From: a virus
Direction: 5' to 3' (one strand)
IMG/VR virus record: IMGVR_UViG_3300046516_000729
Coordinates: 1-45,267 of that record
Length of the DNA stretch: 45,267 bases
Below are positions 2,736 through 22,022 of the stretch, piece by piece (position 1 is the stretch's first letter; each line of letters begins with the position of its first letter). A program made the translations under genes and the position numbers. Under the pieces are notes generated by a model. The model was not told the origin of the DNA. It worked only from the letters and a program-made list of their open reading frames with translations, and made no database searches.

Positions 2736-3968
2736 GTGCGCAATCACAAACACTGGCTCAAAGCCTATATGAAGTTCACCTCAGCCTCGGAGAGCCCCGA
2801 TGCGTTTCACTTCTGGGTTGGCGTTGGTACGATTGCTGGCGCTCTACGTCGCCGCGTATGGCTTGATATGCGTCATTTCCAATGGACCCCTAACTTTTAT
2901 ATTATATTGGTTGGTCCTCCAGGTATCGCTAACAAGTCTACTACGGTTCGTATCGGTACTAATTTACTCGAACAAGTCGACGGCATTCACTTTGGACCGC
3001 AGAGTATGACGTGGCAATCGCTCACTCAAACGCTAGAGCAATCTGTCGAGTACATTAAATACATTGACCATAACGGCGACGAACAACTCCAAGCGATGTC
3101 GCCCGTCACTTGTGCCATTCCGGAGTTAGGGACATTTTTGAAAATGGACGACCACGCACTCGTAGACGTACTCATTGCGATGTGGGACGGTCAAATCGAA
3201 ACGTGGGGACATAAGACGAAAACCAGTGGCAATATCGAAATAAAAAATCCGTGGCTCAACATATTGGCATGTACTACGCCAGCGTGGTTAGAGCAAAATT
3301 TCCCTACCTCGATGATTGGAGGCGGCCTCACGTCTCGCATCATGTTCATCTATGGCGACAAAAAACGTCATCTTGTGGCGTATCCCGACGAACAAATCCA
3401 CGCCGCTGATTACGCGTCACAGAAAGCGTTGCTGGTGGAAGACCTCAAACGTATCGCCCTACTGAGTGGCAACTACTTGTTGACACCAGATGCTCGACAG
3501 TGGGGCAAAGACTGGTACGCGAAGCTCTGGCAGTCACGGCCGCCCGACATGGCGAACGATCGCTACTCAGGATATATTTCGAGGAAACAAACACATATCC
3601 ACAAATTGGCAATAGTTCTCGCATCCGCGCAGCGCGACAAACTGTTGATAGAGCAACATGACCTCGAAGAGGCGGACGCTCTCCTCACAACAATCGAACC
3701 ACACATGATTAAGGTCTTCGAATCTGTGGGTGTTGTCGATGAGTCGAAGCATGTGGCGAATATCCTTGCGCATGTTCGGGCCTATGGGTGGATCGAAGCG
3801 ACGCCGTTATTTAATCTACTTCGTAATAACATGACTGAACGAGACTTTAAGAACGCCTTACGTATTGCCGTAGAACAAGGTCTTATTTCGATTGAATCTC
3901 GCGGCTTAAAGCGAGGACTGACGTTGTCGCCTCCCAACGTGACGCCCATCAAAGCCGTTAAGGTGTAA
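2736..3968 (+). CDS. DUF3987-like replicative helicase/ATPase
   Basis: A 410-residue P-loop protein resembling the DUF3987 family that serves as replicative helicase (sometimes primase-helicase) in many phages. The N-terminal HWLKAYMKFT and SPDAFHFWVG...GALRRRVWL region is typical of the family. Walker A is VGPPGIANKST (about 59-69), with a Walker B-like AIPELGTFLK (Glu about 130). The C-terminal part looks like a winged helix. I chose GTG 2736 because AAGGA lies 11 bases upstream and family similarity starts at once; an in-frame GTG at 2682 overlaps the polymerase stop but would begin before a hairpin. It is the last gene of the rightward block, and its stop overlaps the convergent giant-protein gene by 11 nt. 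No separate primase is visible, so priming may be done here or by the host. Confidence 0.85.
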   Translation: MRNHKHWLKAYMKFTSASESPDAFHFWVGVGTIAGALRRRVWLDMRHFQWTPNFYIILVGPPGIANKSTTVRIGTNLLEQVDGIHFGPQSMTWQSLTQTLEQSVEYIKYIDHNGDEQLQAMSPVTCAIPELGTFLKMDDHALVDVLIAMWDGQIETWGHKTKTSGNIEIKNPWLNILACTTPAWLEQNFPTSMIGGGLTSRIMFIYGDKKRHLVAYPDEQIHAADYASQKALLVEDLKRIALLSGNYLLTPDARQWGKDWYAKLWQSRPPDMANDRYSGYISRKQTHIHKLAIVLASAQRDKLLIEQHDLEEADALLTTIEPHMIKVFESVGVVDESKHVANILAHVRAYGWIEATPLFNLLRNNMTERDFKNALRIAVEQGLISIESRGLKRGLTLSPPNVTPIKAVKV

Positions 3969-6900
3969 GATTCGACGGAACCTTCTTAATGGTCCTCTGC
4001 GAATCAGGATACAGTTTGTCCACCTCACGACGGATCGGAATATCCTTCTTGTGAAGCGGAAGTCCCTGCTCCTGTATGATCCGGTCTCGTGCTCTGGTCT
4101 CCACGGATTTCCTCAGCGTATCACTCGATATAGCCTGCCCCTTCGCTTCAGGCGGCAAGTCTCGATTGAAGTTGACTATTGCTTCCCGCACTCTCGCCAC
4201 CTCGGCCGCGTCCTTTCCGATGGCGGCATTACCAAACTGCCTCATAAGGCCCTGCCGTCTAATGTCCCACAACTTACTTGCATCGTTAGTTGCGAGGACT
4301 TTTTCCCACTCCAGGCTCTGTCGATAGGGCGTGTATCCCGCCCCCATGCCGAGGACCTCCATCAACTGCCACGGATCACGAACATCGTATTTGACAATCT
4401 GAGAGCCTGTACTCGTTCGCTCACCACCTTCTGTTCCAACCCTATATGAATGCATGAGTGCGGAGAGACCTCGTGGTACGGCCTTCTCCCATCGCTTAGA
4501 GTCTTTCCAGTCAAGCTGTGTGTTCGTGAGGGCTTTGTAAATATCGAAGCCCGCGCCGAAAATTGCACCCGACGCTTGTTTCGCCTGACCAGCTATAACG
4601 GCGTTCTGATCTTGAGTGGGCGGGCCAAACAGTTTCCCAAGTTCTACCGGCAATAGTGTTCCAGCCGAAATCGACCGCGATCTATCGAATGTAGGCATTC
4701 GAATATCCACACCGACCGTGCCACCTAACATGTCCATGAAAGCGGGAATGCCATAGCCTTTCCGTGAGATACCATGAAGTATCAAATCGGCGTGGTTACG
4801 GCCTTCTGCGTCCTCCCCCGTAAATTGTAGTAACAGCTTCCGTGCTTCTTGATCTAAATCGAAGTCTTTTCCGAACATCCTCCAGCCAATCGCCTTGAGT
4901 ATCTCTTTAAGATCGTCAGCGCCCGGCACACCCATGAGGCCACCCAACGCGCCCATAACGAGAAGACTTCGTACCGCAGCTTGCGGGTAATTCGCGAGGA
5001 ACACAACGTAGTTTTGTATAAACGTCTTAAAGACGAATACCGTTCTCGCCTTCCCACGCATGAACCGTGGAGCGTATTCCCGTCCATACTGGAACTGCGT
5101 GGTAATCGTCGCGTCAATGGCAGCGGTATATGCTCGCGCTTGTGCCTCGGTCCAACCTTCCGCTCGTCGCTGTTCATATGTGAGCTTACGCTTTGCCACA
5201 ACATTGTTGACGTACTTCGCATTTGGATTATCTAGCGCCAACTGAAGCGCGGCGCGGAATATCAGACGCCTGTTGACCTGTTCGGCCATCTCGAACATAC
5301 CAGCGCCCAACTCGTTGAACTTCATTGCGTTACGCTGCAACACGTTCCCACCGAAACCTAGTCCCAACGTATTGCCCTCGGCGAAGCCCGCTAACTCTGG
5401 CGCCTGCGTCTCCTTGATGACGCCATCGGCCATCCCTTGGAACATCGCTTGTTGATCGAACTCTGTTGCATGTTCCAACGTCCCCTTTTTGTAGAAGGTT
5501 GTGAACTTCCTTCCGGCATTCGCCAGCGCCCCGATGGCCCTGACGTCACCAAACTGCTGAGCCAAGAATGGATAACTCGTCATGAGTGTCTGCGTCAAAT
5601 TTTGACCAGCCGCCGCAGGAGAGAACGCCAACGACCAGAGGAACGCCACACTTCGAATGGCGGCCCAATCCGACTTTGGATCGAGCCAATTTTCCAAATG
5701 GTCATTCATATACGACACAATTTCATGCCGCTTCGTAACGTCGTATTGTCCTTTCACTTCGTCACGGGTCATCGCCGTCAACGCGCGGAGACGATCAGCG
5801 TACATCGCCTTCATGAGGTGGTTCGCCCCATGAAAGAAGTAGTTCGCATACGCTCGTCGGAAATCCATCGAGTAACCCGCTGTCCGATTCTTGTGTTGGA
5901 ACCTGTGCTGGAACGATTGGGCAGGACTAAGTTCAAATTTCAACTGCTCCAACGCGTCCCTCTGAAGGGACGACAGATTAAGCTTCTGACTCATCATATC
6001 AAGCAACTGCGTCGGGACGCCCAACAACGGCCTCACCTGACGGTCCATTTTGCCAAGCTGCATGAGGTCTGTCGCCACTTGATACTTACTCTGTATCACC
6101 GCCGCAGCACGATCCCGTGTTCGACGACTCTCAAACGTCTCAAAATGAATAACCTTACCCGCCGCGTCACGAACAGTAATCGTATAGTCGCCGAAACGCA
6201 TCGACGGAAAATAAGGTTGCTTTCGCAGCGCCGCCATCTGTTTATCTATGGCGGCATTGCTCAGTCCACGTTTCGTTTCGTCTGTGATTTTGTTTGCTTC
6301 GTTCCTGAGGACCGCTTCGTATCGTGTGAGGTGTTCTTGGAAGCTGGTGGCAATCTGGCCGAAGACGGCCAGCCCTTGTTGACTGACGCCATGCTTCGTT
6401 GCCAGAGTTTGAAGCTCTTGTGGCGTAGGATGTCGAGACACTTTACGAGCGATTTCATCGGGCGTCCTATATGTCATATTAGTCACGTCATCAATCAGCG
6501 CCGACACGGCGTCAGCCTGACGTTCACCCAACCTGTTCCACGCTTTGAGTATCTCTTGTGCGCGGATCATAACTTGTTGCTTCGTGAGTTGCGCTACAGA
6601 GATGGTTTCAGTATACTCCTGTAAAGGCGCAATACCGAGATTCCTCTGCGCAACTTGATGGAGACCTAATGCCCATTTGTAGAGCCAATTAAACTTGTCC
6701 GCATACGCCATCGTCTCTTTTACTTCTGGCGTCGGATTACCCTTCGTGAGTTTATCAACGGCGTCCTTCGGTACGACGGTCTCCGGCTGCTGCGGCGCAG
6801 GCGTCTCCTCGGGCCCCATCTTCGTCTTATTATCGACGGTGGTTTGATTATTCGTCTCAGCGTTGACCTGCGAGAAAAATTCCGGCGCGCCAGTCGTTCT

Positions 6901-9900
6901 AGAATCCAACCAATCGTTCAACTCTCGTATTGGCTCAAACGGAAGTCCGAATTTTTCCTTCGCCGTACGGAACAAATTCATAATCTTGTTCCCGAGACTC
7001 GAAAAGAATTTCTCCACCAACGACAACGGCTTTTCTCTGCTCGTGCCCCATCGAGCTACTTGTTCCGCAAACCACTCCGTCTTGGACATCCAATAAATTT
7101 TCTTCTTCGGCCCAATCTGACTGAGCAACGTACTTGCGCCGAAATTTCGCATATTCTCCATATTGACGACGGCGTTGTCGCGGTTAGCAATAACAGAGTT
7201 CATTAAGGGATTCTTCCCTTGATCCTCAATGAATTTGTCGTACGCGGCGTCGACTGCGAGTCTCACATTCTGCGGTGCCTTCTGATATGCCGTCCACTCG
7301 ACGACGTGCCCCAACTCGTGAACCATTGTGGCCCAAACACTCTGAGCATTCTTATGCGTACCGACAGAGATGTGTATCTCGTGTGGTCCGCCGAAACCTG
7401 GCTTCGCCAATCCATACGTGTTGGGATATGACCTCGTCTTAAATATCCCCGGCCGATTCGGATTCGCCTCTCTCAGTTTCACGTCTTTCTCATGCAGGAC
7501 GACCTTGACGTCTGTTCCGAGATTGAGTTGCTTTATAAGTTCCTGTAGAGACTCCGTGAGTGGTTGCATCGCCGCGACGCTGTGTGGCGACACCCCCTGA
7601 GCCTCCTCCACTGTTACTTTGCCAGTCGGCTTCTCCGACGTGTGCGTCGGCATACCCGCGTTGATGTAGTCGATACCAGTCTGAGGAATAATCAGTGATC
7701 GGAACCTCGTTGGCTGATTCGGAGTATTACGGCTGATGTAGTCTTGCGCCAACGCCTCCGTAGCTGATATGGCCAAAGGCCGAGGATTCGGCCTATTCGC
7801 GTCGAACACGCCCCACTCGCCAGTCGGAAGTTGTTGCGCCTGATAATTGGGGCCTTCGATGGTTGTGTATCCGGTCGTGCCGCCAAGTCGCTTCGACCAC
7901 CGCTTGACGATCCCTAGCGTCTCACGATTGTAGAATGTTTGCATTCCAACTCGACGTTGATGCAGAGCCTCCGGCGTTGCCGCCGTGGAATACCGTCTCA
8001 TATGTTCGTCGGCGTCGGCCCACGCAACGTGACGTATTCCGTTGTCTGCCGCCCACATCAAAAAGCGTGTGACGCCGAGTTGGTGCCAACTATCCTTGAA
8101 CGGCGCGTCAGGAATCTTTCCTTCTGTCGTCGGACCATACCCGACCTTCTCTCCATATTGGTGAAGATCTGACTGAACCTCCTCAAGTAATGCCATCGGG
8201 TTGCCGTCGAGCGTCTTGCGAATCGTAGCACGAATCGCAACGACGGCATTAGGTTCTGCATAATGACCTCCAACGAAATCCCTCTGCGTCGGATCGCCCG
8301 CGACATTGCGTGACGGCAAATGCATAGTAAGTTCCACATATGCATCCCTCGGACCCGGCGTCGTTTGGTTTTGATACTTCGCCCAATTCCGATCGTCGTT
8401 CAACGCCAGATAGTCGTCATACAACTTCTGCATCTCTGGATGCGCGATGTTATACTGAGTGCCGTTTGCCAGCTTCGCTGTCGGATCACGCTGTGCGACA
8501 GCGTCCATCTGCTGAAGCAATTGAGTTTGCTTCGCCAACTTCGCCCCCGAATCAAGCGGCGTGCGAATAACCTCCTGCATCGTAATCGCATTGGCGTCAA
8601 GATGATCCAACAGGTTCTGCCGCGTCAGCGTCTCACGAGGATCAACACTCATGAGCATCTGACTCAAATTCATATCCTGCATTTCCTCAGACGTAAAGTC
8701 TTTCTGTTGCAGGATCGAATTCCATCTCTGGGCACTCGCTTTATCCGGCCCCTTCTCTTCGACCCACGAGCGGAGACGACTATATAGTCCTTCAACCGGA
8801 ACGCTCTCTGGCAACACCGCAGCTTCCGACGTCACTGGCTCTCCACGAACCTGCGGCACTTCATCGACAGAAATCTGTGGTCCCGTCGGTATCGGTGTCG
8901 GTGCAGCCCCGAGTCCCGGCGTCAATTTGGCGATCGTATGAACGTCAGGTTCCCCCGTCGGCATAACGACTGGCGGCGTCTCCGGTGGAGGTTCGCCTCC
9001 CGTCGTCGGAACATCAGTCGGCGGCCCGCCAGGTTTCTTGAGTGGTAGTCCGTCCAGCCCCTTCATTTGGTCCGCGACAGCTTGAATGTCCTCTGGCGTA
9101 ATCGGGACTCCTTTTGGTCCAGCTTTGCCAGGAAATACCCCTGCACCGCCGCCCATGACGACACCAGTCAACGCGCCACCAACGATGTTCTCTATCGCCG
9201 ACTTTCCAGTTTCTGCCGTCAGGAACGGTTTTCCCGTAACATACGATACCATAGCATTTTTGATGACGTCTTGTATCCCCTCCGTCACGCCTTCGGTTCC
9301 CGCGCCCTTCGCAGCTTCGACGGCGATGCGCTTCGCAATAGCATGATTGAGTTCTGTCTTAGCGGCACTCGTGAAGAACTTGCCCCATATCGTACCCAAC
9401 GACGCCACGTCGAGCGCCGTAATCGGACCAGCGGCTATCGCGGCGTATTTGGCGGAATTCTCTGGCGTAACTTTCTCGTCCTTGAGCGCCTTATACACTT
9501 CGCCATAGTTCAATCCGGCAGACGGAACCGCGGCGCCTGCAAGGCCTCCAGCGACCGTACCAACAGGACCAGCCAGTGACCCGACAACACCACCCGCTGC
9601 GCCAGTGACCATTGAGGGAATACTCGACGCAATGCCTTGTCCCAACATCTCACCGGCCCACGTCGTGACATCGCCAAAGTTCTTGCTATCAAACAATGCT
9701 CCGGCTTTAGTATTATACTCCTCAGGACTACTCTTAGCTAGATCTCTAAGATATTGTGATCCTGTCTGGAGCTTCCCCCTAAGGCTCTCCGGCGCCAAAT
9801 GCGACATACCTTCGAGGGCTTCCGCCATCAGTTCTGGGTTCTGCTTCAACGTCCCAGACACCAACCCGCGCATGAAGGCATTGTGTTCGGGTGGCGGACC

Positions 9901-10158
9901 CTCTGGTGTCGTCGCCGCAGGAGCCGCAGGAGCCGCAGCCGGAACCTCCGGTGGAGGCGGCCCGGCAACGTCTGGCGCAGAACTCCATGGATCATTCGGA
10001 TCAAACGGCGGCTTAGCTGCGACTGGTGTCTCCGTCGGCGCGGTCTGTGCCGTCGTGAATGGCTTATTCGGATCAAACGGAGGCTTGTCTTCGGCCGCAG
10101 CTTGTATGGCCTCAAACGGCTTGCTCGGATCAAACGCTGGCTTTACTTCCTGATCCAT
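3958..10158 (-). CDS. giant internal virion (ejected) protein with metalloprotease motif, 2066 aa
   Basis: By size, position and features this is a podovirus-type internal/ejection protein delivered into the host with the DNA. The N-terminus (1-65) has three FDPxxPF/W repeats in Pro/Ala-rich sequence. Gly/Ala-rich hydrophobic stretches near 172-205 and 320-343 could insert in membranes. A zinc-protease signature HELGH (His947, Glu948, His951) is followed by TEWFAEQVARW, a possible third ligand. Near 1315 the motif PYFPSMRFGDY matches the PLxRFG-type region of large phage internal proteins. A further hydrophobic segment lies near 1695-1730. The start ATG overlaps the previous stop (TAATG). It is the last late gene and ends 11 nt inside the convergent helicase gene. 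Enzymatic activity is inferred from the motif only. Confidence 0.88.
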   Translation of the reverse strand: MDQEVKPAFDPSKPFEAIQAAAEDKPPFDPNKPFTTAQTAPTETPVAAKPPFDPNDPWSSAPDVAGPPPPEVPAAAPAAPAATTPEGPPPEHNAFMRGLVSGTLKQNPELMAEALEGMSHLAPESLRGKLQTGSQYLRDLAKSSPEEYNTKAGALFDSKNFGDVTTWAGEMLGQGIASSIPSMVTGAAGGVVGSLAGPVGTVAGGLAGAAVPSAGLNYGEVYKALKDEKVTPENSAKYAAIAAGPITALDVASLGTIWGKFFTSAAKTELNHAIAKRIAVEAAKGAGTEGVTEGIQDVIKNAMVSYVTGKPFLTAETGKSAIENIVGGALTGVVMGGGAGVFPGKAGPKGVPITPEDIQAVADQMKGLDGLPLKKPGGPPTDVPTTGGEPPPETPPVVMPTGEPDVHTIAKLTPGLGAAPTPIPTGPQISVDEVPQVRGEPVTSEAAVLPESVPVEGLYSRLRSWVEEKGPDKASAQRWNSILQQKDFTSEEMQDMNLSQMLMSVDPRETLTRQNLLDHLDANAITMQEVIRTPLDSGAKLAKQTQLLQQMDAVAQRDPTAKLANGTQYNIAHPEMQKLYDDYLALNDDRNWAKYQNQTTPGPRDAYVELTMHLPSRNVAGDPTQRDFVGGHYAEPNAVVAIRATIRKTLDGNPMALLEEVQSDLHQYGEKVGYGPTTEGKIPDAPFKDSWHQLGVTRFLMWAADNGIRHVAWADADEHMRRYSTAATPEALHQRRVGMQTFYNRETLGIVKRWSKRLGGTTGYTTIEGPNYQAQQLPTGEWGVFDANRPNPRPLAISATEALAQDYISRNTPNQPTRFRSLIIPQTGIDYINAGMPTHTSEKPTGKVTVEEAQGVSPHSVAAMQPLTESLQELIKQLNLGTDVKVVLHEKDVKLREANPNRPGIFKTRSYPNTYGLAKPGFGGPHEIHISVGTHKNAQSVWATMVHELGHVVEWTAYQKAPQNVRLAVDAAYDKFIEDQGKNPLMNSVIANRDNAVVNMENMRNFGASTLLSQIGPKKKIYWMSKTEWFAEQVARWGTSREKPLSLVEKFFSSLGNKIMNLFRTAKEKFGLPFEPIRELNDWLDSRTTGAPEFFSQVNAETNNQTTVDNKTKMGPEETPAPQQPETVVPKDAVDKLTKGNPTPEVKETMAYADKFNWLYKWALGLHQVAQRNLGIAPLQEYTETISVAQLTKQQVMIRAQEILKAWNRLGERQADAVSALIDDVTNMTYRTPDEIARKVSRHPTPQELQTLATKHGVSQQGLAVFGQIATSFQEHLTRYEAVLRNEANKITDETKRGLSNAAIDKQMAALRKQPYFPSMRFGDYTITVRDAAGKVIHFETFESRRTRDRAAAVIQSKYQVATDLMQLGKMDRQVRPLLGVPTQLLDMMSQKLNLSSLQRDALEQLKFELSPAQSFQHRFQHKNRTAGYSMDFRRAYANYFFHGANHLMKAMYADRLRALTAMTRDEVKGQYDVTKRHEIVSYMNDHLENWLDPKSDWAAIRSVAFLWSLAFSPAAAGQNLTQTLMTSYPFLAQQFGDVRAIGALANAGRKFTTFYKKGTLEHATEFDQQAMFQGMADGVIKETQAPELAGFAEGNTLGLGFGGNVLQRNAMKFNELGAGMFEMAEQVNRRLIFRAALQLALDNPNAKYVNNVVAKRKLTYEQRRAEGWTEAQARAYTAAIDATITTQFQYGREYAPRFMRGKARTVFVFKTFIQNYVVFLANYPQAAVRSLLVMGALGGLMGVPGADDLKEILKAIGWRMFGKDFDLDQEARKLLLQFTGEDAEGRNHADLILHGISRKGYGIPAFMDMLGGTVGVDIRMPTFDRSRSISAGTLLPVELGKLFGPPTQDQNAVIAGQAKQASGAIFGAGFDIYKALTNTQLDWKDSKRWEKAVPRGLSALMHSYRVGTEGGERTSTGSQIVKYDVRDPWQLMEVLGMGAGYTPYRQSLEWEKVLATNDASKLWDIRRQGLMRQFGNAAIGKDAAEVARVREAIVNFNRDLPPEAKGQAISSDTLRKSVETRARDRIIQEQGLPLHKKDIPIRREVDKLYPDSQRTIKKVPSNLTP

Positions 10159-16656: not shown

Positions 16657-16929
16657 CTACGGATTTATGTTTAGTCTCTTAGTCATCACATCTACAACTC
16701 TCTCTAATCGCTCCTTGTTCTCCTTCGTCTGACTCTCTAACACCGTCAAACGATTATCGACTACCGCTAGATGCGGACTGCCGCGCGTCTCCATCGTCGC
16801 AACTCGATTTTCCAAATTCACCATATACGACAACCCCCACGCACCACCAGACACAAGTGCAAGAGCCTGCGCAATCAGGAAATAAACCAATGTCGCATTT
16901 TCCTTAGCCCATTGCTTGAGTTGGGTCAC
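16657..16929 (-). CDS. membrane-anchored coiled-coil protein (spanin/Rz-like or holin partner)
   Basis: 90 residues from a GTG start with AAGGGTGG upstream. One N-terminal membrane segment (about 13-38, ATLVYFLIAQALALVSGGAW) is followed by a periplasm- or cytoplasm-exposed coiled coil (NLENRVATMETRG to KERLERVVDVMTKRLN). This is the architecture of an inner-membrane spanin (Rz), though it precedes rather than follows the endolysin, and no lipoprotein partner is seen. It could instead be a signal-anchor holin. It starts the lysis cassette, nine bases before the 54-residue holin candidate. Confidence 0.75.
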   Translation of the reverse strand: MTQLKQWAKENATLVYFLIAQALALVSGGAWGLSYMVNLENRVATMETRGSPHLAVVDNRLTVLESQTKENKERLERVVDVMTKRLNINP

Positions 16930-16953
16930 GGACCACCCTTCATCTTACTGAAC

Positions 16954-16992
16954 TCACTCAGCGTTAGCGGCGGCTGGAAAATCAAATGCCAT
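16954..16992 (-). pseudogene. relic of a fibre gene start (MAFDFP...)
   Basis: A 12-codon frame MAFDFPAAANAE preserves the first six residues of the two neighbouring fibre genes (MAFDFPNSPTVGQT). It is preceded by GATGCGAGATTTCTG, one base longer than the GATGCGAGGCTCTGA/A junction found before both intact fibre starts. I read it as the remains of a further fibre cassette cut off after its sixth codon. The 76 bp here otherwise hold only the ribosome-binding region of the next gene. Confidence 0.7.
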
Positions 16993-17005
16993 CAGAAATC
17001 TCGCA

Positions 17006-18088
17006 TCATGTCGCACAATACTCGGTGATGATTACAATGCCGGGAGCACCGGGAGCGCCCGCAAAACTTCCAGTGCCGTTGAACGAATTGCTACCGCCGC
17101 CACCGCCACCATAATTTCCGCCATTGCCGCCCACAGACCCCATACCACCAGAGCCGCCCATCCCAAAACCTTTGCCGCTCGTACCACCATTGCCCCCCGG
17201 AGGTGAGAATATCGAATTGATGCCGTACCCTAGCGCGGTGAAGCCGTTTTGGCCCGGTATTGAATAATCGCCGGTCCCAGATACACCTCCCGCACCACCG
17301 AAAACCGGAGTATTGCCGGGAACACCAGTTGACCCGGTCGCACCCTTCCCGATGCACAATGCGCCGACGCTGGTGTCACCACCATTGCCGCCCGTTCCAG
17401 CGGCGGCAGCGCCACCGTTGCCACCACCGCCAACAGTCACTACCAGCGAGGCACCAATCAGTGCCGCCGTCGCAATCTTATATGAGTAACCGCCGCCGCC
17501 GCCGCCGCCACTAGCGGCCCCATTGCCACTTGTCGAGGCTGCACCGCCAGACCCGCCACCGCCGCCAACGCACTCGATAGTCGCGTAGAGCAATCCGGGT
17601 GATGGCGTGTAAGTACCACTGGCGGTGAATTTTTGGACTTTGACGGTGCCAACGCCTGCAATGTTCCGCCGCGCCTGCGCCTGTTGTGGTCCTGTCAGCG
17701 TCTGTACAATATCGTTGCGCACACCATTCGTTGCGAGCCATCCCGTTGTAGGCACCTTCGCACTATTATCTGCAACAGGTGGTGCCTGCGATATACTCAC
17801 TTCGCCTGTAGCAGCACCAACAAGTACAGAGGCTCCACGCGTTATATCATCTAAAGTGAAACTACCATCGTAGCTACTAACAGCCCATCCATATGTGTGT
17901 ACAGGTGCGCTTGTATTCCCTAAAATGAACTCGTAATAACCGTCAGAACGAAACGCATAAAATCCCGTTCCATTCAAATTGCCACCACTTACCGCGGCGC
18001 TTCCCTGCACCTGCCACGCCAAGCCGTCCCAGACATAGCCTAAGTATGTCTGACCAACTGTAGGCGAGTTAGGGAAATCGAATGCCAT
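17006..18088 (-). CDS. fibre/adhesin with Gly-rich distal domain
   Basis: 360 residues. The N-terminus MAFDFPNSPTVGQT is shared with the upstream fibre. A middle section has LTGPQQAQARRNIAG, matching LTAAQQVQARQNIYA in that fibre. From about 165 the protein becomes a Gly-rich domain with many GGGGG and GGNGG runs, ending APGIVIITEYCAT. Gly-rich distal domains followed by an IVIIxEY strand occur in receptor-binding tips of phage fibres, where polyglycine helices form a sandwich. It starts by overlap with the previous stop (TAATG). Confidence 0.82.
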   Translation of the reverse strand: MAFDFPNSPTVGQTYLGYVWDGLAWQVQGSAAVSGGNLNGTGFYAFRSDGYYEFILGNTSAPVHTYGWAVSSYDGSFTLDDITRGASVLVGAATGEVSISQAPPVADNSAKVPTTGWLATNGVRNDIVQTLTGPQQAQARRNIAGVGTVKVQKFTASGTYTPSPGLLYATIECVGGGGGSGGAASTSGNGAASGGGGGGGYSYKIATAALIGASLVVTVGGGGNGGAAAAGTGGNGGDTSVGALCIGKGATGSTGVPGNTPVFGGAGGVSGTGDYSIPGQNGFTALGYGINSIFSPPGGNGGTSGKGFGMGGSGGMGSVGGNGGNYGGGGGGSNSFNGTGSFAGAPGAPGIVIITEYCAT

Positions 18089-19464
18089 TAGAGCCTCGCA
18101 TCAAATTTAAGACCGGGGTGTGCTGTCAGAAACGCTGTCAGGTTTCCGGTCATGCCGCTAAACCCACCCGCGTTGATCGTGCCGCCCGTCAAGTCGCCCG
18201 CGCCGATGGTAGGTGCCGCCGTCGAATTGAAAGTCCCATTAGCATAAACGCTGACCGTGCCAGCCGGTGCCAATAGAATTGGAGACACGCGTTTGATAGT
18301 ACGAAATGCCGTTGATAGAATTACGGTGCTTGTTGAGGATACTTGTCCAACCGACCCCATCGTAATCGGCTCCAGATAACGCTGGCACAGCAGCAGCTCC
18401 TGATCGAACGGTCGCATGATGAAGGGCGCGCGCGCGACGGATGGGGCTTCGATGCCGGGGAGAACGACCAAGCCGGTGATGCAAACGACGTTATTTGTCG
18501 TCACGAAGAAATTTGTTTGCGCTGACGACCCAAGGAAAAGACTGGAACCCCAGACATTCGCGGTCCCTTGAAGGGCAGCGTCACAGCCACAGCAAAACCG
18601 CAAGCGCAATCCAATTCCGTTCGTGTTTAACCAAGTGCCACTTATGTCGCCGGGGATGGTGACAGTCTTAAACTCCCACGTCGCCGCACTGTTGATGACA
18701 ACATTTGCAAAACAATTCCTGTTGCCTGCGCTGTTGCCAAGTTGCACGCCCATTGTGCCAGCGATAGTGGTATATACCCAAAACCCTATGCTTATGGGCT
18801 GTGCTGCTGAATTGCCAAAGCCGAGGCGAGCAACGCGATAACCTTCGAGGTTTTGGGCTATCGTAAAACTCTCTCCCGCCGAAGGCGTGCCCCCCGTCGT
18901 GGCCTTCATCTGCAAACAACTCTGAAAAGCCGCTCCGAACGACGGTGCTCCGGGTGGCACTATCTGCTGTAAAGAAAACACACCTGCGCTTGACGCCGCA
19001 TAACCGATAAAGCCATCTATTGTTTGTTTCACCACGCCGTTTGTCAGTGGGATAGAAGTCGTCCCGTTCTCCTGACTGACCTCCATCGAGCCGTTGATTT
19101 GCATGCCGCTATAGGCGAGCGCATCGAACGGTGCGGCATAGATGTTCTGCCGCGCCTGAACCTGCTGCGCTGCCGTCAGCGATTGCGCGCTATCATAACG
19201 TACTGTGCCAGGCGTCAAACCAGCAATCGCCACCCACTGAGTAGAATTGCCATCATAATAGTTGACGTAGAGTATTCCAGTATCGCTCTCCCACCACAAC
19301 GAACCCGGCGGCGCTGCCGGTGGATTGTCATTGACGTAGATCGGTCCGAACGCCGCGCCGCTCGTCCACTTCTCGCCATCCCAAGTATAGACCGGCTGGC
19401 CCGAGACAGGCGTCGTAGGCCACGTCTGACCAACAGTCGGACTATTGGGAAAGTCAAAAGCCAT
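18088..19464 (-). CDS. modular tail fibre protein, second cassette
   Basis: 458 residues. N-terminus MAFDFPNSPTVGQTW plus a WDGEKW element. From PPGSLWWESDTG (about 50) through QARQNIYAA, MQINGSMEVSQ, ARAPFIMRPFDQELLLCQRY to the final FDARL it parallels the last 390 residues of the upstream 852-residue fibre, including the identical LWWESDTG and DARL ends. It is therefore a duplicated C-terminal fibre module with its own start. Overlapping start/stop (TGATG) on the upstream side. It likely forms a second trimeric fibre or a partner that changes receptor choice. Confidence 0.83.
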   Translation of the reverse strand: MAFDFPNSPTVGQTWPTTPVSGQPVYTWDGEKWTSGAAFGPIYVNDNPPAAPPGSLWWESDTGILYVNYYDGNSTQWVAIAGLTPGTVRYDSAQSLTAAQQVQARQNIYAAPFDALAYSGMQINGSMEVSQENGTTSIPLTNGVVKQTIDGFIGYAASSAGVFSLQQIVPPGAPSFGAAFQSCLQMKATTGGTPSAGESFTIAQNLEGYRVARLGFGNSAAQPISIGFWVYTTIAGTMGVQLGNSAGNRNCFANVVINSAATWEFKTVTIPGDISGTWLNTNGIGLRLRFCCGCDAALQGTANVWGSSLFLGSSAQTNFFVTTNNVVCITGLVVLPGIEAPSVARAPFIMRPFDQELLLCQRYLEPITMGSVGQVSSTSTVILSTAFRTIKRVSPILLAPAGTVSVYANGTFNSTAAPTIGAGDLTGGTINAGGFSGMTGNLTAFLTAHPGLKFDARL

Positions 19465-22022
19465 CAGAGCCTCGCATCAACATTGAGATTGCCGCCCGCG
19501 CCCTGATAAGTCGTCACCGGCCGGGCTGCCGTCAGACCGGCTGCGATGGTGGCATCTACCTCTAGCACCGTGGGTGTCGAATTGTTGGTTCCGATGGTGG
19601 TGCAGGTCGAAGTAGCCGCACCGTCGAATACCGGGAGCGCAGCCGTCATCGCCAGCGTCGGTGTCGCCCGCATTTGAACCGGGTGATTGGCTGACAACCG
19701 GAATGCGCTGGTCGCTGGACTTGAGACAACGCCCTTAATCGACGGCACCCCGTTGTAGAAGTATCGCTTGCAAAACTGAATTTCCTGGTCGAATGAGCGC
19801 ATAATCAGCGGCGCGCGGGCTGCGGACGGCAAATCGACACCGGGAAGAATGATAAGCCCCGTTACTTCAAATGTGTTGCCGACGGTCGCGGCAATGTTCA
19901 TGGCACCACCTGTCATCGGGACTATACTTAAAATCCCGCCAAGGCCGTTCGTTTTCGATCCGCCCCAACTTGCCTGTGCAGGGAATGTAGCCGTAACAAA
20001 TTGTGGGGTATTGGCGGCGATGATGGTGACATTGATCGAGGGGGCTACTGATATGTTGTCAGTGAGCTGAAGGACCAACACCCCCGCAACCGACGATTTG
20101 ACCCACATTGCCGCTGAAATCGGCTGCGCAACGGCCGTGCCCCAACCGGCCTTTACAAGCCTGTAACCTTCGATCCGATGCTGGAGGCCAATGCTGTCCG
20201 ATCCGATAGTGGGTTGTGCGGTCGTCACCGTCAGCTTCATTTCGTTGTTGTAACCGGGAAATGCCGAAGCCGCCAACTGCACAGTAAAGGCATTGACGCC
20301 GGTTTTGGTACAACTCCAACTGTCCGCCAAATAGGCAAAGCCACTTCCCGCAGGGAGCGCAACAGCCGCGCCGCCATTGGGCTGATCTACCTCGTATGAG
20401 CCGTTGATCTGGATGCCATTATATATCAGCGCATCTACTGGCGCGGCATAGATGTTCTGTCTCGCCACTGTCTGTTGCGCCACCGTTGGCGCTTGTGGCG
20501 TGTACGCAACCGCGCCAATTCCCGCCGCACTCACAGCGGGGGACGCAAGTACCCACTGACTCGACGTCCCATCATTATAGTAGATATAAAGGTTGCCAGT
20601 ATCACTCTCCCACCAAAGGTTGCCAGCACTTGGACTTCCCGGCGGAGTATCACTAATCGTGACGCTCGCGCCACCTCCGCCACCACCTCCTGGCCAAGTC
20701 GAAAGAAGAACCTTCTTATGTGTGGACGAAGCGGCGTCGTAAATAACTCCATAGTCGGTTCCAGCAGGCGTCGTTTTCACCGTGAGCCCATTGACGTCCA
20801 ACTTCAACGTTCGTGTCGCCGCAATCGTCCCGCCACCTTGTATGCCTTCAGTGGTAGCGACAGACACAGCACTATGGTCAATATGCTGATTCGCCACATA
20901 GTTGAGCAACGCATTATGGTCAATGATACCATTGAGCGTCGCGATTGACGCTTTGCGCGGCCCGCCAGCTGCGACGTTATGGAATGGAATAAAATCCACA
21001 GCCGCCGGCGTCAACGTCGTCAGCGAGTTTATATCCAACGAGAGAGACCTCGACGTCGTAATATCGCCACCACCTGATAGGCCAGTACTCGCAACTATCG
21101 ACACTCCACTATGGTCGATGTGTTTATTCGCGACCCAATTCAACAACGTATCATGATTGATGACGCCATTAACGACAGACCCCAACACGCGTCGTGGACC
21201 ACCCGCGGCGAGGTCCATTATGAAGTAATCTGTCAGAACCGGACCAGCGTTGACCGTCAGTTCAACTGGAGCGAAATCAAATGTCCTACTCGTCGTAATA
21301 TCGCCACCGCCCGTCAACGCGAGTCCCGCCGTGAGCGTTACTGTGCTATGGTCAATATGTTTATTGGCAACAAAATTCAACAACGCATTGTGATCGACAG
21401 AACTTTCAATCACATCAAAATCGGCATTATCTCCAAACGTCGCTTGATTGTTCGTAATAACAATCCCGACACTTCCACTCGACGATCGGAACTGAAATGT
21501 ATCCGTTCCGGCCGCCGTCGCCGTATTCGTTCCATCGAACATGAACTTAAACGTATCAGCCGACGGTGCGCCACTAACTATAACCCACGCCCCATCGTCC
21601 CGAAGGAACAACGAACCCGGCGCGCCGCTATGTGGCGCGGGAACCAGCCCGTCATGCACATTCGTAAATACGCCATAACCTCCACCATTCACCGAATATC
21701 CACTTCGACTGACCGACCAATTCGTATCATTCGAATACAGCGACGCCATCTGAGTCGGCTCAATCGTCGTGACAACATTTGCCAGCGTATCCGTTACGAC
21801 GAGATTTCCCACCGTCCCAATGTTATTCACAACGTAGAAACGACCAGTCTCAAACGGCGGCAAGAATACTTGCCGATCCGCGCCATTCGCATCCAACGCA
21901 CTAACGACCGCCCCATTCTTTGTAATCGACACAGGTCCACTTAGCAGCTTCGACGAATGCGAATACCTAATACTCTTCATATGAGTATTAAAGGCTTTCG
22001 TATCTTCTTGGTCGAGACGCAT
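19464..22022 (-). CDS. main tail fibre protein, 852 aa, with triple internal repeat
   Basis: The N-terminal part (1-130) is unlike the other fibres and probably attaches to the virion. Three repeats of about 75 residues follow, each with DHNALLNFVANKHIDHS-like and GGGDITTSR-like blocks (about 205-425), suggesting a repetitive shaft. A Gly7 linker (encoded near 20670-20695) leads to a C-terminal receptor-binding module (GSPSAGNLWWESDTG to the DARL end) shared with the next gene. Base composition changes inside the gene near 20450-20640. TAAGGGG lies 5' of the start at only moderate strength. Confidence 0.85.
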   Translation of the reverse strand: MRLDQEDTKAFNTHMKSIRYSHSSKLLSGPVSITKNGAVVSALDANGADRQVFLPPFETGRFYVVNNIGTVGNLVVTDTLANVVTTIEPTQMASLYSNDTNWSVSRSGYSVNGGGYGVFTNVHDGLVPAPHSGAPGSLFLRDDGAWVIVSGAPSADTFKFMFDGTNTATAAGTDTFQFRSSSGSVGIVITNNQATFGDNADFDVIESSVDHNALLNFVANKHIDHSTVTLTAGLALTGGGDITTSRTFDFAPVELTVNAGPVLTDYFIMDLAAGGPRRVLGSVVNGVINHDTLLNWVANKHIDHSGVSIVASTGLSGGGDITTSRSLSLDINSLTTLTPAAVDFIPFHNVAAGGPRKASIATLNGIIDHNALLNYVANQHIDHSAVSVATTEGIQGGGTIAATRTLKLDVNGLTVKTTPAGTDYGVIYDAASSTHKKVLLSTWPGGGGGGGASVTISDTPPGSPSAGNLWWESDTGNLYIYYNDGTSSQWVLASPAVSAAGIGAVAYTPQAPTVAQQTVARQNIYAAPVDALIYNGIQINGSYEVDQPNGGAAVALPAGSGFAYLADSWSCTKTGVNAFTVQLAASAFPGYNNEMKLTVTTAQPTIGSDSIGLQHRIEGYRLVKAGWGTAVAQPISAAMWVKSSVAGVLVLQLTDNISVAPSINVTIIAANTPQFVTATFPAQASWGGSKTNGLGGILSIVPMTGGAMNIAATVGNTFEVTGLIILPGVDLPSAARAPLIMRSFDQEIQFCKRYFYNGVPSIKGVVSSPATSAFRLSANHPVQMRATPTLAMTAALPVFDGAATSTCTTIGTNNSTPTVLEVDATIAAGLTAARPVTTYQGAGGNLNVDARL

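Follow-up and report, generated by a model that had tools for sequence, protein, structure and literature searches.

Three tail fibre genes follow one another on the minus strand of IMGVR_UViG_3300046516_000729, a 45,267-bp IMG/VR virus record from a soil phage that was analyzed at its full length (the window): fibre 1 (19464..22022), fibre 2 (18088..19464), and fibre 3 (17006..18088). A short DNA sequence recurs where fibre 1 meets fibre 2 and where fibre 2 meets fibre 3, which raises the question of what holds it constant. The initial annotation saw in this repeat a recombination signal through which the array grows and shrinks. We consider it very probable instead that the junction is a translational connector coded in the end of the fibre gene and situated on the border of exchangeable fibre modules, based on the motif, its codon bias and spacing, a register shift, similarity edges, the presence or absence of cassettes, and the recurrence of gene stubs. 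The junctions would share their DNA because a C-terminal protein motif doubles as the Shine-Dalgarno sequence (SD) and start site of the next gene.

Codon choice at the fibre junctions

Both junctions were found as initially described, joining a DARL end to an MAFDFP start on the minus strand. Junction 1/2 (GATGCGAGGCTCTGATGGC, 19460..19478) comprises the DARL codons of fibre 1, the SD GCGAGG (19475-19470), a TGATG overlap, and the start of fibre 2; junction 2/3 (GATGCGAGGCTCTAATGGC, 18084..18102) has the same anatomy with a TAATG overlap. At both, the stop codon shares one base with the start codon, as in translationally coupled gene pairs. Under the codon usage of the window, the probability that two DARL ends share all four codons is about 0.006, and the identity of the junction codons is therefore real. 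The other structural genes of the window have aaggag or gaggag SDs at the same distance from the start. No third copy of the junction was detected within the window at up to 3 mismatches (chance expectation 0.02 matches), and a pattern scan for two junctions 12-42 nucleotides (nt) apart found none. RNA folding at the junctions revealed no shared element, one fold being weakly stable and two less stable than shuffles.

The codons were then compared in relatives, whose fibre genes were gathered by protein similarity and not by the junction. Among 81 distinct fibre open reading frames with a complete 3' end, 77 terminate in [DN]xR[LIFMV] and two more in SARL. In these 77, the Ala codon is GCG in 75 (background 34%) and the Arg codon AGG in 75 (background 7.6%), while the Asp codons are near background and the wobble base adjoining the block varies freely. 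The first ATG lies 5-9 nt past AGG in 74/77. These patterns indicate that an SD (GAGG) is embedded in the coding end, properly spaced, and kept by codon choice. In one relative, L040, a DIRL end is coded with ATAAGG, so that an AAGG SD is retained although the residue has changed; this exception therefore fits the SD reading. The freely varying wobble base, on the other hand, is not what would be expected if the junction DNA were kept as a boundary sequence at which homologous recombination shuffles fibre cassettes, the initially proposed view, which we now regard as improbable.

Cultured phages provided a natural control. Their related fibres (about 26-36% protein identity) end in [DNSE][AS][RE]L, and the annotated next gene was read for 41 fibre or neighbouring genes. 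The motif spells an SD in 21/21 cases with the next start within 6 nt, compared with 1/13 with a farther start (Fisher p 2.4e-8, a nominal value as several of the phages are kin). Phage RN05-S holds both situations in one genome: GCG GAG TTA TGA CT ATG at one motif end, and GCC GAA CTT at another, with the next gene 82 nt off. Where the genes overlap by the 4 nt ATGA (S-SRM01, S-SBP1, S-B43, and P-SCSP2), the SD moves one to two codons upstream with the start and the xAEL/xSEL end stays. SD coding that tracks the distance to the next gene and shifts register with the start codon argues against a boundary sequence, since codon choice and this register control offer another explanation for the conservation. 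The cultured cyanophage Synechococcus phage MinM1 carries AACGCGAGGCTCTGA, identical to the soil-phage sequence. More generally, GCGAGGCTCTGA occurs in relatives with unrelated fibre ends, including MinM1, because the C-terminal protein motif is overlaid with the SD and start site.

Exchange of fibre modules and the position of crossovers

Similarity blocks (at least 80% identity, 200 bp) were compared across 83 non-redundant contigs. Of the blocks starting near a junction, 104/151 begin no more than 25 nt from it on both contigs, compared with 0/169 for block ends, the pairs of similarity edges not being independent. The partners are unrelated upstream of the junction. The edge of similarity between recombinants falls at a conserved sequence, as a boundary sequence would also predict. 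Close relatives share a conserved N-terminal part of the fibre and differ by replacement of the C-terminal part, the pattern of modular fibres. L103 has one additional 1,377-bp fibre cassette relative to L140, with 182 identical nt upstream and 98-100% identity downstream; the edges of this cassette fall in the junction and within ~150 nt of the beginning of the next gene, an arrangement that again favours the boundary view. Taken together, these comparisons show that the relatives exchange, gain, and lose fibre modules and whole cassettes, whose right edge is the junction.

The crossovers themselves often lie elsewhere, in at least four pairs. In L026/L048, L103/L140, L115/L144, and L066/L072, identity is low right after the junction and climbs to 98-100% at 0.1-1.2 kb downstream; the crossover is therefore downstream of the junction, contrary to the boundary view. 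Some pairs, such as L043/L056 and L132/L155, are 92-100% identical from the junction onward, as that view would have it, and in these the crossover may have occurred at the junction.

The repeated junction could also stem from a recent tandem duplication of one fibre gene. The C-terminal half of fibre 1 is indeed paralogous to fibre 2, and fibres 2 and 3 have the same 14 N-terminal residues (MAFDFPNSPTVGQT). However, the paralogous stretches are only 71-78% identical, and 10/13 degenerate codons of the shared N-terminus differ synonymously; the copies are therefore old, with only the last codons held constant. Self-comparison of 84 contigs revealed no recent tandem duplicate (the best stretch of at least 150 bp reached 80%), although assemblies could hide very recent copies. 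Cassettes therefore look imported rather than copied in place, and a recent duplication was rejected as highly implausible. The lack of recent tandem duplicates also disfavours the boundary view. We give as little credence to a site-specific recombinase of the invertase or shufflon type. Short repeated sites between fibre genes are what such an enzyme would act on, but these copies are direct, form part of coding sequence and SD, adjoin a variable wobble base, and lack a matching inverted copy; the window has no supporting inverted repeats, and inversion was likewise rejected on this ground, with no search aimed at a recombinase gene.

Besides the dependence among edge pairs, some observations weigh against a purely translational explanation. 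Leu is CTC in 50/68 DARL ends against a background of 20%, an excess beyond what SD pairing explains and one that a boundary sequence would accommodate. Recombination could, moreover, benefit from the extreme identity of the 15-nt block. Finally, in the cultured Synechococcus phage S-T4 (L172, 2775) a fibre with an EAEL end has it coded by the SD-like GAGGCGGAGCTTTGA, although 174 nt separate it from the next annotated gene. A small gene that escaped annotation may sit in that gap.

The initial proposal was thus borne out for the turnover of the array, as modules and cassettes change among relatives and stubs recur, but not for the repeat as its signal: the similarity of junctions in relatives with unrelated fibres is largely explained by protein motif, SD, and start, several exchanges crossed over downstream, and the copies in the window are old.

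Stubs, the decayed junction, and the surrounding genes

As initially noted, an altered junction copy follows fibre 3 and leads into a 12-codon stub. The decayed copy (GATGCGAGATTTCTGATGGC, 16988..17007, minus) encodes a DARF-type end and overlaps the fibre 3 stop: it begins inside the stop codon, out of the fibre 3 frame, and exceeds by one base the length of a normal DARF end, spelled GATGCGAGGTTCTGATGG in relatives. With the extra base and the wrong frame, it is therefore no longer read as a C-terminus. The stub (MAFDFPAAANAE and a stop codon, 16954..16992, minus) is of the MAFDFP type and would be the start of a lost fibre gene. Fibre 3 ends in IVIITEYCAT, not DARL, and relatives of it terminate in IVIITEYC(N). 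Since the glycine-rich end of fibre 3 is complete as in other phages, the DARF remnant is most plausibly what is left of an earlier end. In L034, a complete MALDFP-type fibre occupies the position of the stub, ahead of the same downstream membrane gene (75% nt match). From these comparisons, the stub most likely originated as a recombination scar. The array is unchanged in a near-identical independent sister contig (8,108 bp, 99.96%). The terminal fibre of L034 (L034:2911-3987) closes with LKALRARVAGLEGRLAVKPA, which looks like a coiled coil and resembles the ends of intramolecular chaperones (S74).

In the non-redundant set, 16 stubs of 8-28 codons were found after junctions, a count that includes the window's own (in the sister contig) and one pair of possibly shared descent. 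In L098, the stub runs on in frame into the final residues of another fibre (VDFDLIANARL), and in L095 it ends in DTRL; both are read as deletions. It is also conceivable, if rather unlikely, that the stub functions as a mini-cistron, handing ribosomes on to the following gene, and is not just a relic. In all seven relatives where the following fibre start could be placed (L026, L048, L073, L095, L098, L135, and L139), the stub ends -1 to +2 nt from that start, as if ribosomes were relayed. The window stub, in contrast, ends 24 nt ahead of the next start; that start has an SD-like AAGGGTGG of its own, and the DAR copy ahead of the stub is frame-shifted.

After the last fibre, most relatives carry a gene for a protein of ~90-110 amino acids (aa), MADYQLTATDxVIRTxDGACIPNDPANRD...DHENRIRALEGQPPL (phrog_20370/34019; for example L095:9224-9520 and L029:4322-4621), of which the window has no copy. 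This protein could be a fibre-associated chaperone. In L054 (3030-3110), after a stub MADYQLTATDN, the next fibre seems to start with GAGGAGGTTCCCATCGGCATCAACTTC, with ATC in place of the relatives' ATG. A GTDB scan for the small gene after the fibres returned four loci only (Bradyrhizobium, Rhodoferax, Rhodoplanes, and Cupriavidus), which suggests Proteobacteria but supports no host call.

The genes of the array and its surroundings are all on the minus strand. A collar-type tail gene (23013-22033) precedes fibre 1, a protein of 852 aa with the C-terminus NVDARL that matches phrog_9729 (tail fibre protein, E 5e-19). Fibre 1 contains, at 20872-21397 (minus), three repeats of about 79 aa with 237-bp spacing and of the HDxLLNxVANKHIDHS type, likely a fibre shaft repeat. 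Fibre 2 (458 aa) runs from MAFDFPNSPTVGQ to KFDARL, and fibre 3 (360 aa), which starts with MAFDFPNSPTVGQT and has a glycine-rich C-terminus, matches phrog_863 and PF21722 (Gly_rich_2). The next gene after the stub (16657..16929) has a GTG start and encodes a 90-aa protein that has a membrane-like segment and looks like a holin; an amidase endolysin follows (16486-15527). Farther along, a 2,066-aa protein (3958-10158, minus) resembles DarB-like antirestriction families in its C-terminal part and a virion protein family in its N-terminal part. A nucleotide search of cultured phages with the fibre region of the window gave no match.

The structure of fibre 2 was predicted with a pLDDT of 79.5 and a pTM of 0.65. 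The model has an N-terminal beta region, a CBM4-like jelly roll (about 138-336), a helix with LCQRY, and a small C-terminal beta domain ending at DARL; the variable part of the fibre is the region after LCQRY. The model matches 4bj0 in Foldseek (E 1.8e-6, TMt 0.71). The predicted fold, as a fold only, is thus of a carbohydrate-binding type.

A connector model and known systems

In the model that we favour, the last four residues, DARL, are conserved as protein, possibly for a role in the folded fibre, and the Ala-Arg codons would be held at GCG-AGG since GCGAGG is the SD of the next gene. Ribosomes, we infer, pass from fibre to fibre via the stop/start overlap (TGATG/TAATG). Because each fibre gene carries the connector, fibre genes could be joined in any order. 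Recombination in flanking homology would swap, gain, or lose C-terminal modules and whole cassettes, the exchanged piece being bounded on its right by the junction, and imprecise joins would leave short stubs. In the window, the MAFDFPAAANAE stub and the decayed DARF copy are most likely a scar of this kind, left when fibre 3 acquired its glycine-rich end or when a fourth fibre disappeared.

More speculatively, [DNSE][AS][RE]L, common to soil, marine, and freshwater phages with unrelated tips, might be a standard connector that combines a structural or partner-binding protein end with a movable SD and lets any cassette stand before any gene. Selection for such plug-compatibility, if this were true, would keep fibre arrays open-ended. 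No description of the DARL/AEL fibre end was found in the open-access papers searched, which is weak evidence of absence; the motif, apparently undescribed, spans distant phages and marks a fibre family whose cassette gains, losses, and scars are directly legible.

The fibres of HMO-2011, Venkman, ctEw122, and Kyanoviridae are alike in their carbohydrate-binding type, their [DNSE][AS][RE]L end, and the small gene that usually lies close after; they differ in sequence (the same 26-36% protein identity), in a mostly GGAG SD, and in having E for R. In T-even phages, distal tail fibres are reportedly swapped by recombination between conserved motifs (Tetart et al. 1998, cited in PMC10408124). Adhesin modules are swapped between related phages in both cases, but here the edge is at the 3' end of the adhesin gene, and in T-even phages the motifs are inside it.

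In lytic coliphages, receptor-binding domains are flanked by conserved DNA motifs for which a role as recombination hotspots has been proposed (PMC10408124). The present junctions are similar in that conserved short DNA edges exchangeable receptor-binding modules across unrelated phages; unlike those motifs, they constitute a coding end and the ribosome site of the next gene, which explains much of their identity. Such DNA is often proposed to be a hotspot, whereas here translation accounts for most of the conservation while turnover is still real, and the natural control with its shift of SD register is a simple test for other motifs of this kind. Two models have been put forward for module borders at gene borders, boundary sequences and illegitimate recombination with selection (PMC3233612). 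Module borders coincide with gene borders here too, but translation gives a separate reason for the conservation of the border, and the crossover is often elsewhere. The -1 nt overlap of TGATG/TAATG is a known spacing class of translational coupling (reviewed in PMC12548453), likewise with an SD inside the upstream gene; unlike in those pairs, it is tied here to a conserved C-terminal tetrapeptide on fibres with otherwise unrelated ends. The present case thus appears to combine translational coupling with module-border behaviour, most of the motif being explained, as far as sequence comparison can tell, by translation.

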